A DNA stretch of 64,000 bases from contig NZ_PZZZ01000005.1 in assembly GCF_003046475.1 (NCBI RefSeq), forward strand, positions 1 through 64,000. The letters are read 5' to 3'. The DNA comes from Mycoplana dimorpha. GTDB taxonomy: Bacteria; Pseudomonadota; Alphaproteobacteria; Rhizobiales; Rhizobiaceae. Each line of letters opens with the position of its first letter. Positions within the stretch are counted from its first letter, which is position 1. Shown one piece after another: positions 31,335 through 39,254 of the stretch. The notes beneath the pieces were generated by a model that did no database searches, was not told where the DNA came from, and worked only from the letters and a program-made list of their open reading frames with translations. The position numbers and the translations under genes were made by a program.

Positions 31335-33104
31335 TTACTGCGCCACGAGGTGGCCGCCGCCGATATCGACGAGGTTCACCTTTTCCGGGCCCTCGCCGAC
31401 CTTCCAGACGGGGCTCGGGATCTCGCCCGAAAGCCGCAGGCCCGGTTGGCGTTCGCGGCGCGGGTCCGGCACCGGCACCGCGGCCAGAAGGCGCTTTGTG
31501 TAGGGATGCTGCGGATTGCCGAACAGCTGCGCGCGCGTCCCCATCTCGACGATCTGGCCGAGATACATCACCGCCACGCGGTCGGAGATGTTTTCCACCA
31601 CCGCCATGTCGTGGCTGATGAACAGGTAGGTGACGCCGCTTTCCTTCTGCAGGTCGCGCAGCAGGTCAAGCACCTTCGCCTGGATCGACACGTCGAGGGC
31701 GGCGACGCTCTCGTCGCAGATGATCAGCTTCGGCTTCAATGCAAGCGCGCGCGCGATGCAGACGCGCTGGCGCTGGCCGCCGGAGAACTGGTGCGGATAG
31801 CGGTTGTAGACGTTCGGTGACAGTTCGACGCGTTCGAGCAGTTCGCGCACCCGCGCCTTCTGCTCCTCCGGCGTGCCGATGCCGTGGATGACCAGCGGTT
31901 CGCGGATCAGTTCGCCGACGGTCATCCGCGCATCGAGCGCCGCCATCGGGTCCTGGAAGACGATCTGCAGGTCGCGGCGGATCGCCTTGCGGCCCTTGCC
32001 GTCGAGGTCGCTCAGCGCCTTGCCGTTGATCTCGATCCGGCCGGTATGGGGCACGAGCCCGACCAGCGCCTTCGCCATGGTCGACTTGCCGCAGCCGGAC
32101 TCCCCGACCAGCGACAGCGTCTCGCCGCGAAAGATTTCCAGCGACACGTGCTCGACGGCGTGGACACGCGCGGCGACGCGGCCGAGCAGGCCCTGGCGGA
32201 TCGGGAAGTTCACCGACACATCATCGTAGCGCACGAGGACGTCGCGTGCCTCATGCTGGGGGCGCGACGCGCCGGTGCCGATCCGCGGCACGGCTGCGAG
32301 CAGGTCGCGGGTATATTGCTCCTTGGGAGCATCGAAGAGGTCGATGGTCGGCGCCGCCTCGACCATCTTGCCCTTGCGCATGACGATGACGCGGTCGGCC
32401 ATCTCGGCGACGACGCCCATGTCATGGGTGATCAGGATGACGGCGGTTCCGAGTTCTTTCTGCAAGTCGCGCAGCAGGTCGAGAACCTCGCGCTGCACGG
32501 TGACGTCCAGCGCCGTCGTCGGCTCGTCGGCGATCAGGACGGCGGGGCGGAGCGCAATCGCCATGGCGATCATCACGCGCTGGCGCATGCCGCCCGAAAG
32601 CTCGTGCGGATACTGCTCCAGCCGCTTTTCCGGCTGCGACAGGCGCACGGCCTTGACCGCCTCGAGGGCGCGGGCACGCGCCTGTGACACAGACAGCGGC
32701 TCGTGGGCGCGAATGGCCTCCACGAGCTGGCGACCGATGCTCATGACCGGGTTGAGCGCGGTCATCGGCTCCTGGAAGATCATCGCGATGCGCGCGCCGC
32801 GCATCGCCTGCATCTTCCTCTCGGGCAAGGTGGTCAGTTCCTCGTCGCCGAAGCGGATGGAGCCGCCCGTCACCCGAACCGCGGGTGCGGGCAAAAGCCC
32901 CATGCAGGCAAGCGACGTAATCGACTTGCCCGAGCCGCTTTCCCCCGCGATCGCAAGCGTCTCGCCCCGATGAAGATCGAAGCTGAGCCCCTCGACCAGC
33001 GGAACGAGCCCCTGGTCCGAGCGGGCGGAGACCTGCAGGTCGCGCACTGACAATACGACGTCGACTGCCGCATCGACTGCGGGAGAAAGCATGGCTGCGG
33101 TCAT
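31335..33104 (-). CDS. Peptide/amide-type ABC transporter, fused double ATP-binding protein
   Basis: 589 aa carrying two complete ATPase domains (an OppD-OppF-type fusion). The first has GESGSGKSIT, LSGGMRQRVMIAMAIA and VLIADEPTTALD; the second has [28 protein letters not shown] and LIICDESVAALD, with Ser after the Walker B Glu. Each is followed by the oligopeptide-family extension. ATG 33104 overlaps the formamidase stop (ATGA), so an upstream longer frame is rejected. Last gene of the seven-gene amide operon; it powers the two permeases encoded earlier in the operon. Confidence 0.93.
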   Translation of the reverse strand: MTAAMLSPAVDAAVDVVLSVRDLQVSARSDQGLVPLVEGLSFDLHRGETLAIAGESGSGKSITSLACMGLLPAPAVRVTGGSIRFGDEELTTLPERKMQAMRGARIAMIFQEPMTALNPVMSIGRQLVEAIRAHEPLSVSQARARALEAVKAVRLSQPEKRLEQYPHELSGGMRQRVMIAMAIALRPAVLIADEPTTALDVTVQREVLDLLRDLQKELGTAVILITHDMGVVAEMADRVIVMRKGKMVEAAPTIDLFDAPKEQYTRDLLAAVPRIGTGASRPQHEARDVLVRYDDVSVNFPIRQGLLGRVAARVHAVEHVSLEIFRGETLSLVGESGCGKSTMAKALVGLVPHTGRIEINGKALSDLDGKGRKAIRRDLQIVFQDPMAALDARMTVGELIREPLVIHGIGTPEEQKARVRELLERVELSPNVYNRYPHQFSGGQRQRVCIARALALKPKLIICDESVAALDVSIQAKVLDLLRDLQKESGVTYLFISHDMAVVENISDRVAVMYLGQIVEMGTRAQLFGNPQHPYTKRLLAAVPVPDPRRERQPGLRLSGEIPSPVWKVGEGPEKVNLVDIGGGHLVAQ

Positions 33105-34060
33105 TCGAAGACGGCCCTCGGGAAGTAGAAGCTGACCACGACGTTCGGCATGTCGACGATCTCGGAAATGCGAAGATCGCCGCAGGTCGAAACGAGCATG
33201 TAGGCGTCGACCGGGTCCATCTTCTGCGTCGTGGCGAGAAGATCGACCATGTTCGCGACGGCGTCCCTGGCCGCGGCCCACAGGTCCGGACCGATGCCGG
33301 TCGTGACCTCATAGCCCTTGGCATCGAGATGCCGCGTGACCGGGCCCGGCGTGGTGAAGCGCGGCGTCTTCAGCGGCTGGTCCTTGATGAGGTCGAGCGT
33401 CAGCACGACGTCGAACGGGCTCTCGATCGCGGTGCCGCAGACTTCGCCGTCGCCCTGTGCGGCGTGGGTATCGCCGACGGAGAACAGCGCGCCCTCAACC
33501 TCGACCGGCAGGTAGAGGGTGGTGCCGGCCGCAAGGTCGCGGATGTCGAGATTGCCGCCGACGCGGCGCGGCGGGACGACCGAATGATGGCCGTTCTCGG
33601 CCAGCGCGTTGCCGATGGTTCCGGCAAACGGCTTGAGCGGCACGCGGCCGTTCTTGCCGAACAGCGCCGGCTCCATGCTGGTGGCGTCGAACTTCCAGAC
33701 GTTGAGGGCCGGTTCGGTGAACTGGTCGGCGAGCAGGCCGAAGCCCGGGATGTTGGCGGTCCAGCCGAAGCCAGCGCCGTCGCGAAGCTGCGGCGTGAAG
33801 CTCTCGATCGTCACCTTGAGGACGTCGCCCGGCTTGGCACCATCGACGTAGATCGGCCCGGACACCGGGTTGATTTTGGCGAAATCAAGCGCCTTCACGT
33901 CCTCGACGGTGGACTGGGGGCCGAGTTGGCCCCCAGAGCTGTCGAGGCACTGAAACAGGATCGTCTCACCCGGCGCAGCCTTAAGGGCGGGGGCAAAGGA
34001 ATTGTCCCAGCCGAAATGGTGCTGATGGGCGTGGATCGTGTGGTTGCAGTGCTTGCACAT
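33101..34060 (-). CDS. Formamidase/acetamidase family amidohydrolase
   Basis: 319 aa, FmdA/AmdA family, which hydrolyses short amides such as formamide or acetamide to ammonia and the acid. Recognisable parts include the N-terminal HHFGWDNSFAPALKAAPGE, PVSGPIYVDGAKPGD, GDTHAAQGDGEVCGTAIE, and the C-terminal YMLVSTCGDLRISEIVD. The protein begins with a CxxC pair (MCKHCNH). The gene lies inside an operon with an amide sensor and an uptake system, so it is the catabolic step. Nine bases separate it from the binding-protein gene. Confidence 0.92.
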   Translation of the reverse strand: MCKHCNHTIHAHQHHFGWDNSFAPALKAAPGETILFQCLDSSGGQLGPQSTVEDVKALDFAKINPVSGPIYVDGAKPGDVLKVTIESFTPQLRDGAGFGWTANIPGFGLLADQFTEPALNVWKFDATSMEPALFGKNGRVPLKPFAGTIGNALAENGHHSVVPPRRVGGNLDIRDLAAGTTLYLPVEVEGALFSVGDTHAAQGDGEVCGTAIESPFDVVLTLDLIKDQPLKTPRFTTPGPVTRHLDAKGYEVTTGIGPDLWAAARDAVANMVDLLATTQKMDPVDAYMLVSTCGDLRISEIVDMPNVVVSFYFPRAVFE

Positions 34061-34068
34061 AACCAGCC

Positions 34069-38119: not shown

Positions 38120-39192
38120 GAAACCACCTTCAGCATCGAGCCGCCATGAGAGGTTTGCGAACGGTGCGTGAGATAGGGGTCGGCGCGCAGTGCCGGCAAC
38201 CGCTTGATCTCGTGAAACCGGCCGCTCTCGAGCCGGGCAATGATGGCGGGCTGACGCGCGTGGAGATGGGCAGGGTCGAGCCGCGGCGCGTGGCCGGCGC
38301 GCATCGCCGCGTTGAGCACCTCCGCAAGGGCAAGCCCCTCCGCCCCCGGACGACCGTGGAGCAGCAAAGCCAGCTCATGCACGGATTGCCGCGCCATCTC
38401 GTGGAACGACCCGCCGGTGCCGCCGTCCGGCTCGAACCAGGGGCCGGCCGAGATCAGCCCCTCCGCCGCGTCGCCGGCAGCGCCGATCTCGCATTCGGTG
38501 AAGTTGCACGACAGGACGGTCAGGCGATGGGCGAATTCAGGTGCCCGCTTCAGCTCGGAAAGCCGTGCCAGGAACGCGTAGGAGCTGTCTCCGATCAGCG
38601 AGTTCAGGATGAAGTCGGGCTTCAGTGCCCGGATGTCCTCGATGATGTGATCGAGGTCGGTGTCGCCGATCGCAAGGTAGCGATCGCCGAGTACCTGGCC
38701 GTCGGCCGCCGCGACCCGCTCGCGGGCGATCTGCGCCATCTCCCAGCCCCAGATATAGTTCGAGCCGACCAGATAGGTGCGGGCGCCAAGCGTCGGAAGC
38801 GCCCAGTCGAGGAGCGGCAGCAGGTGCTGGTTGGGGCAGGAGTGCATGTAGGCGACGCGCTCGGATGCCTCGAAACCCTCATAGGGCACCGGATACCAGA
38901 GAATTCCGTCGAAGCGCTCGAGCTCGGGGATGACCTCCTTTCGGCTGGCGGAGGTGATGCAGCCGAAGATGTGGCGCGCCTCGGACACTTGCAGGATCTC
39001 GCGGCAGAGCGGCGCATAGCGATCAAGCCGCCCTTCCGGGTCGCGCTCGATGACGCGGAACGAAACGTCGAGGCGCGGATCGGCGTTCACTTCCCTCACG
39101 CCCTGCAGCACGCCCTCGCGGGATGCGCGAGACAGCGCGGCATACATGCCACTGCCTGACAGCAGAACTCCTATGTCCACGACCCGCTTCAT
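38116..39192 (-). CDS. Amide-sensing periplasmic-binding-fold protein, AmiC-like
   Basis: 358 aa, family of AmiC/UrtA-type binding proteins. There is no signal peptide from ATG 39192 (KRVVDIGVLLSGSGMYAALS), consistent with a cytoplasmic sensor that binds the antiterminator. Recognisable AmiC segments include GILWYPVPYEGFEASERV, MHSCPNQHLLPLLDW, VGSNYIWGWEMAQIARE and AFLARLSELKRAPEF. ATG 39192 has TTTGGGGC upstream and lies 15 bases after a terminator T tract. Expected role: release AmiR when an amide binds. Confidence 0.9.
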   Translation of the reverse strand: MKRVVDIGVLLSGSGMYAALSRASREGVLQGVREVNADPRLDVSFRVIERDPEGRLDRYAPLCREILQVSEARHIFGCITSASRKEVIPELERFDGILWYPVPYEGFEASERVAYMHSCPNQHLLPLLDWALPTLGARTYLVGSNYIWGWEMAQIARERVAAADGQVLGDRYLAIGDTDLDHIIEDIRALKPDFILNSLIGDSSYAFLARLSELKRAPEFAHRLTVLSCNFTECEIGAAGDAAEGLISAGPWFEPDGGTGGSFHEMARQSVHELALLLHGRPGAEGLALAEVLNAAMRAGHAPRLDPAHLHARQPAIIARLESGRFHEIKRLPALRADPYLTHRSQTSHGGSMLKVVS

Positions 39193-39207
39193 CGGTGCCC
39201 CAAATGC

Positions 39208-39254
39208 AAAAAAACCCCGCGCCGGCGCGCCGAAAAGCGCGGTCGGAACGGGGC
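39208..39254 (-). terminator. Leader terminator of the amide operon (antitermination target)
   Basis: On the minus strand: GCCCCG, then CCGCGC, a TTTTC loop, GCGCG and CGCGGGG followed by seven T. Outer stem CCCCG/CGGGG and inner stem CGCGC/GCGCG are joined by a partly paired internal loop. It ends 15 bases before the amiC-like start codon, so it would stop transcription before the operon. This is the place where AmiR is expected to act. Confidence 0.8.

Follow-up and report, generated by a model that had tools for sequence, protein, structure and literature searches.

A putative single-hexaloop ANTAR attenuator in the leader of an amide operon of Mycoplana dimorpha

In Pseudomonas, AmiR reads the amiE leader of an operon that also contains amiC and amiR themselves (PMC3369936). 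Described ANTAR leaders carry two hexaloop hairpins, P1 and P2, each with A at loop position 1 (A1) and G at loop position 4 (G4), and leader mutants indicate that both loops are required for eutP induction (PMC3369931). With the EutV–RNA structure, the minimal motif bound by ANTAR has been redefined as a single hexaloop (PMC8934654). In May 2026, an operon of about 8 kb with amiC-amiR, a cluster-5 importer encoded by four ATP-binding cassette (ABC) genes, and an amidase was reported from Klebsiella sp. KOS9, with more than 99% similarity to plasmids of Phytobacter, Raoultella, and others (PMC13209695). Here we analyse a 64,000-nucleotide (nt) stretch of Mycoplana dimorpha DNA (NZ_PZZZ01000005.1, positions 1 to 64,000; the window), on contig 5 of a 4.59-Mb genome in 22 contigs, and in particular a minus-strand operon that encodes an AmiC-like sensor, an AmiR-like ANTAR protein, an importer, and an amidase. 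Judged from its sequence, this operon is probably an autoregulated amide-utilisation unit under AmiC/AmiR-type antitermination, with a natural single-hexaloop ANTAR attenuator as its leader.

An earlier note on this DNA described an amide operon behind an antitermination leader. The seven minus-strand open reading frames (ORFs), with matching Pfam families, lie where it put them, and the hairpin with seven T that it described at 39208-39254, ending 15 bases before the first ATG, is present. The consensus terminator scans do not list this hairpin, whose stem carries internal mismatches, and an Rfam scan of the window at gathering scores lists two tRNAs and nothing else. The AmiR gene lies behind the terminator that AmiR itself would overcome, an arrangement in keeping with AmiR-type antitermination. 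The statement that the parts are "fused into one tightly overlapping operon" holds for the overlapping and abutting genes; actual fusion is confined to the two ATPase domains. At the base of the terminator, a three-pair mini-hairpin closes a hexaloop with A1, and its 3′ arm is the terminator foot. The mini-hairpin and the terminator are thus mutually exclusive.

The leaders of related loci align on GGC-A-N5-GCC, followed directly by a GC-rich stem, a T run, and the start codon. With pattern-picked anchors, the element and its overlapping hexaloop can be placed in 67 of 69 leaders. In a blind test, terminators were located first; a three-pair hairpin with a loop of 3 to 12 nt was then sought at the base of their 5′ arm. 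This count covers 66 of the 69 leaders, leaving out L059 (no terminator found by the script), L087 (contig end), and L092 (no such operon); L096 has no AmiC in its stretch and hence no leader. A hairpin with a 6-nt loop is found in 53 of the 66, loops of 3-5 and 7-12 nt give 0-14, and shuffling the 20 upstream bases gives a mean of 6.06 and a maximum of 12 (200 shuffles); since the rows are related, these counts are not independent events. Position 1 is A in 51 of the 53 loops, and position 5 is G in 37.

Base pairing was counted in 56 distinct rows of the 67 leaders, mostly on GGCA-picked anchors, so that A1 and GGC are partly there by construction. The terminator cells hold standard pairs in 98.8% of cases, and pairs 3-6 show 2, 6, 4, and 12 double-sided changes (four of the six outer positions). 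The mini-hairpin shows a compensatory exchange of G-C to A-U in three rows. Substitutions in stem and terminator go together in the leaders of Phytobacter (L106) and Photobacterium (L107). An RNA model trained on 21 leaders of the window's clade, the window's own included, scores its own site at 70.6 bits and the next match in the genome, a partial one, at 18.6 bits (150 of 8073 first-look candidates scored). The comparative evidence for the leader is therefore stronger than the fold of the single sequence. The same model finds a match at E<0.05 in 25 of 47 loci outside the training set, all 25 at the leader, and none in the other 22. At E<=0.01, a class-wide scan gives matches in 13 of 142 genomes, including the window's own; because the other 12 are weak (at most 28.5 bits), we make no regulon claim and take the E-values as rough. 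As the sole pattern for a genome search, GGCANNNNNGCC plus a T run was uninformative (106 matches against 92 in a reversed control).

The terminator fold of the window leader has a predicted energy of -29.6 kcal/mol. Enforcing the mini-hairpin gives -23.7 kcal/mol, opens the lower terminator pairs, and moves the stem off the U tract. In seven of eight further leaders folded, the unconstrained fold is clearly the lower one. The geometry is that described for antitermination by ANTAR proteins (PMC3369936, PMC3369931, PMC8934654). We infer that the RNA would start about seven bases ahead of the 12-nt hexaloop hairpin and that transcription would by default stop at the terminator, about 60 bases from the start, leaving the operon with a low level of read-through. 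The ABC importer would take up the amide, which cytoplasmic AmiC would bind, freeing AmiR. AmiR on the hexaloop would stabilise the GGC/GCC mini-hairpin, which would capture the GCC of the terminator foot, so that the shortened stem stands off the U tract and RNA polymerase proceeds. Induction would feed back positively, because AmiC, AmiR, importer, and amidase are all encoded behind the terminator. The genome holds one ANTAR match and one full leader match, which suggests that the circuit is private to this operon.

Several observations weigh against this interpretation. The fold of the window leader is by itself moderate evidence: the hairpin is more stable than shuffled sequences (mean -22.0 kcal/mol, sd 3.0), and 3 of 200 shuffles are as stable. 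In the clade leader L054, the two folds are nearly equal in stability. G4, held essential for NasR and EutV, is present in 4 of the 53 blind loops and is T in the window. The blind test missed 13 of the 66 leaders, in all of which the pattern-picked anchors place the hairpin, and L072 and L088 have no A1. When arms are swapped between rows, the mini-hairpin still pairs in 94.8% (own arms, 100%) and the terminator cells in 92.0% (own arms, 98.8%). The signal is therefore mostly conserved sequence at a conserved place, and covariation is modest. A sigma-70 consensus scan selects not the promoter proposed below but a site at 39533-39504 (9 of 12 positions, 0.3 expected). 

The features of the operon are collected in Table 1. 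The seven genes, as called from ORFs, run tightly packed from 39192 to 31335. By eye, the AmiC-like protein lacks a signal peptide and is taken as cytoplasmic, and its gene adjoins amiR; its partner has an AmiR-type pseudo-receiver and a C-terminal ANTAR domain, as expected of an AmiC/AmiR pair. The best structure match of the AmiC-like protein is 8tg1 (E 5e-37), a receptor with no stated ligand, followed by P. aeruginosa AmiC (1pea, E 1e-31) and then urea-binding proteins; the AmiR-like protein matches AmiR 1qo0_D (E 2e-11). With a family-5 binding protein (its start signal-peptide-like by eye), two permeases, and oligo_HPY ATPases, the importer belongs to the Opp/Dpp (peptide/opine/nickel) type. 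The permeases and the binding protein do not reach NCBIfam cut-offs. The binding protein is very near PDB 8upi (E 4e-268), whose ligand we take to be aminoserine, from Mesorhizobium; no paper on it stands among the literature matches listed (10 of 451).

Table 1 Features of the amide operon and its leader in the window
Feature	Position	Strand	Basis or remark
Predicted -35, TTCCAA	39300..39305	-	column conservation in 19 clade leaders (clade CTTCC, -43 to -39 from mini-hairpin)
Predicted -10, TAAGCT	39277..39282	-	clade column conservation (clade TAnnnT); 17-nt spacer
Predicted transcription start, A at -7 from mini-hairpin	39270	-	A in 19/19 clade leaders; inference
Hexaloop mini-hairpin GGC-ATTTGA-GCC, P2-type antiterminator, proposed AmiR site	39252..39263	-	3′ arm is the terminator foot
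Intrinsic terminator, T7 tract	39208..39254	-	GC-rich hairpin; 15 nt before amiC ATG at 39192
AmiC-like sensor	38116..39192	-	Peripla_BP_5, 221 bits (Pfam)
AmiR-like antiterminator	37508..38119	-	AmiR_N 45.6 and ANTAR 38.1 bits, both above Pfam cut-off
ABC permease, OppC/DppC type	36634..37533	-	Pfam
ABC permease, OppB/DppB type	35714..36634	-	Pfam
Solute-binding protein, family 5	34069..35685	-	SBP_bac_5 (Pfam); PDB 8upi match
FmdA/AmdA-family amidase (acetamidase/formamidase family)	33101..34060	-	FmdA_AmdA, PF03069, 206 bits
Fused two-domain ABC ATPase, DppD-DppF type	31335..33104	-	two ABC_tran stretches and oligo_HPY (Pfam)

We regard an amide as the presumed ligand and substrate. The amidase scores 133 against a cut-off of 500 for the NCBIfam FmdA equivalog, so that it is not established as a formamidase proper. 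A circuit of the same design could respond to and hydrolyse something other than formamide or acetamide, such as amino-acid amides, urea, or another small amide-like compound; we consider this a serious possibility, though less likely than not. In its favour, the importer is of the dipeptide class, and the AmiC-like protein also matches UrtA, far below the UrtA cut-off. At what we take to be the AmiC pocket positions (S85, Y104, T106, Y150, and Y152), T106 is V in the window and varies among the rows, and all 67 rows have W for Y152; on the other side, no row differs at the positions aligned with S85 and Y104, and Y150 is kept in 66. In seven variant operons (L074, L076, L080, L082, L085, L090, and L091), the genes after AmiC-AmiR encode a proline-iminopeptidase-like hydrolase and a Dpp-type importer of another kind. 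The hydrolase was scanned in two of the seven, both of which match TIGR01250; FmdA is also present in two of the seven operons, and all seven leaders carry a mini-hairpin of the same type. These operons hint that some members of the family handle amino-acid amides. Acetamidase activity, however, has been measured in a lysate of Klebsiella sp. KOS9, whose single acetamidase gene lies in an amiC-amiR operon that is apparently the same operon (PMC13209695), which argues for a simple amide.

The second alternative is that the leader is an ordinary dual-hexaloop ANTAR leader, with a non-obvious second hexaloop upstream or inside the terminator, and that the single loop is an artefact of the assumed promoter. 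The two loops of described ANTAR leaders (PMC3369931) give this a basis, as do hairpins directly upstream in relatives. We scored as P1-like a hairpin of at least four Watson-Crick pairs that ends at most 4 bases from the mini-hairpin. Outside the window clade, 33 of 44 leaders have one (shuffle mean 5.8, maximum 13), whereas inside it 4 of 23 do, which is chance level (shuffle mean 3.3, maximum 9); five-pair hairpins occur in 18 of 44 and 1 of 23, respectively. Many individual P1 hairpins are no better than shuffles, and the case for P1 is collective. The P1 loops outside the clade are of mixed lengths and rarely start with the hexaloop A, and any upstream three-pair A1 hexaloop is rare in these leaders (10 of 44, some plainly chance). 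Inside the clade, there is no position-conserved second A1 hexaloop: seven of 23 leaders have one, scattered between -45 and +50. The window leader has no upstream P1 with its own A1/G4 hexaloop, a statement that for the region farther upstream rests on the inferred start site. A 10-bp inverted repeat around the predicted promoter, AATTTAGCTT/AAGCTAAATT, was considered as P1 and rejected by eye, being not conserved in the clade alignment.

The position of the promoter bears on the same alternative. The 39533-39504 site of the consensus scan would leave room for P1, but this region resembles the window's beyond shuffles in 1 of 21 clade leaders, and we reject it as the promoter while retaining it as a caveat. 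The proposed region resembles the window's beyond shuffles in 14 of 21. It is not listed by the consensus scan in the window, but in L053 that scan itself chooses a site at -44, the proposed place. The conserved -35 and -10 columns and the invariant A at -7 point to transcription beginning directly ahead of the hairpin, and an RNA that began at this A could not accommodate P1. Taken together, we consider a hidden second hexaloop unlikely. A sigma-54 promoter, suggested by the likeness of the hairpin's GGCA to a -24 box, was rejected by eye, as there is no GC at -12 spacing. An imperfect dyad, GCACAAATGTTGC (39366-39378, minus strand), lies 115 bases upstream of the mini-hairpin, and 9 of 19 clade leaders have a loose form of it at 114-115 bases. 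It may be the site of a DNA-binding regulator, conceivably of nitrogen metabolism.

The preferred reading, a single-hexaloop attenuator, can be extended to the clade. In an AmiR tree of 66 rows, the window clade comprises 23 rows, with 100% support in the Shimodaira–Hasegawa-like approximate likelihood-ratio test (SH-aLRT), and sits in a supported 38-row group that includes P1 leaders; the tree was made by a quick method and has weak inner forks and one very long branch (L107). By the stricter P1 rule used for the tree, 22 rows of the clade are without P1 and L053 has a weak one; outside the clade, 27 have it, 12 do not, and 4 are doubtful. The no-P1 label requires 11 changes on the tree (none of 500 shuffles needs so few); P1 has thus apparently been gained or lost several times. 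The Rhodobacter leader L105 (AAATAGCCGGC-TGGTGCCGGCACGGC-ATTCGCGCCCCG) and the clade member L040 (AAATAGCCGGC-ATTCGAGCCCCG) differ in a 15-nt stretch between GGC repeats, a difference that looks like a collapse of P1 onto the antiterminator. We give even chances to the view that the whole clade has one hexaloop, having lost P1 as if by such a GGC-repeat collapse, with G at loop position 5 instead of 4, a start just before the antiterminator, and a looser and simpler ANTAR recognition. Among nine loci with other AmiR_N matches, an A1 hexaloop stands at the terminator foot in two (L144 and L150), in each of which the following ORF carries what we take to be an aliphatic-amidase motif; L150 has, by eye, an additional upstream A1 hexaloop. 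These loci are too few for comparison.

That the hairpin serves simply as a terminator or insulator, with AmiR acting elsewhere or nowhere, is highly improbable: GC-rich hairpins with T tracts are common and the single-sequence shuffle test is moderate, but no upstream gene on the same strand needs ending, because the upstream neighbour of amiC, a methyl-accepting chemotaxis protein gene (39730, plus strand), is divergent, the overlapping hexaloop recurs in the leaders by either count, pattern-picked or blind, and the genome scan (150 of 8073 first-look candidates scored) gave a single full leader match.

AmiR matches occur in 99 of 397 genomes of the order (E<=1e-10). Among the 24 named loci of the AmiR scan, 19 have the same seven-gene order, including L060, where it is split into several frames; four end at contig edges, and L059 has a different importer arrangement. 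The same order is found in 29 of 40 more distant loci; three are cut by contig ends, L092 has no visible importer, and seven have AmiC-AmiR with another Dpp-type importer. These 40 are the best AmiR matches, a selection of lower ones, and a same-genus locus, so the shares are not frequencies, and one of them, from the L047 genome (Mycoplana azooxidifex), is shared with the named set. The order is also annotated on plasmids of Pseudochrobactrum, Sulfitobacter, Rhodobacter, Paracoccus, a Rhodobacteraceae strain, Aureimonas, and Phytobacter, hosts that span Rhodobacterales, Hyphomicrobiales, and, with the one Phytobacter, Enterobacteriaceae. The DppB-type permease alone matches 959 plasmid records at E<=1e-60, 714 of them from Klebsiella and others from further Enterobacteriaceae; relatives of this permease appear as metabolic cargo of large plasmids in these hosts. 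A scan of viral contigs with AmiR found no relative. Two loci stand apart. The contig of L048 is binned as Arenimonas (Gammaproteobacteria), yet its operon groups within Rhizobiaceae, which is probably a binning error. On a Skermanella rosea plasmid (L108, 6650-13034), the permeases, binding protein, amidase, and ATPases of the family lie behind a nitronate monooxygenase gene, and amiC and amiR are not annotated in that stretch.

The earlier note was thus sound on gene content, terminator, and anatomy, and it missed the hexaloop, its loop letters, and the absence of P1. Its claims of novelty were overstated. It took the layout for a departure from Pseudomonas, where amiC and amiR likewise lie behind the amiE leader that is controlled (PMC3369936), and the set of sensor, importer, and amidase had been published for Klebsiella sp. 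KOS9 (PMC13209695); both the content and the feedback layout are already known. Among the matches listed from open-access full texts, there is no account of the leader of this operon or of a natural single-hexaloop ANTAR attenuator; the supplementary tables of the genome-wide ANTAR leader search (PMC3369931) may list such a leader. A natural one-loop family beside sisters with an upstream hairpin offers a ready experiment on the question of one or two loops. It also provides a search model, a GGC-A-N5-GCC hairpin at a terminator foot upstream of amiC; searches for dual A1/G4 hexaloops would be expected to overlook leaders of this kind. The leader itself is a compact, probably amide-inducible switch.

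The amiE operon of P. aeruginosa resembles the window operon in its AmiC sensor, its AmiR ANTAR protein, its leader terminator, and the position of the regulators inside the controlled operon (PMC3369936). Unlike that operon, the window has amiC and amiR first, a dipeptide-type ABC importer, and a single hexaloop without G4. The amidases also differ: AmiE is of the nitrilase family, and that of the window is of the FmdA/AmdA family. UrtA-type urea/amide ABC systems, with which FmdD-type amide systems are grouped, have a binding protein of the same superfamily as the AmiC-like protein; unlike these, the AmiC-like protein of the window is signal-less and paired with AmiR, and the importer has its own family-5 binding protein. 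A close counterpart in content is the operon of KOS9, which, by content, size, and hosts, is presumably that of the Phytobacter plasmid L106: both have amiC, amiR, two permeases, a binding protein, an ATPase, and an amidase in about 8 kb, as in the window (PMC13209695). The operon section of that paper gives no leader analysis. L106 has the gene order of the window and moderately similar proteins (amidase 67%, permease 65%), and its terminator-foot hexaloop, AATGAA, has both A1 and G4. The leaders read by EutV (eutP) and NasR (nasF) share with the window an A1 hexaloop whose 3′ stem overlaps the terminator foot. They have P1 and P2, each with A1 and G4, and eutP needs both, whereas the window has one loop and its family places the G mostly at position 5.

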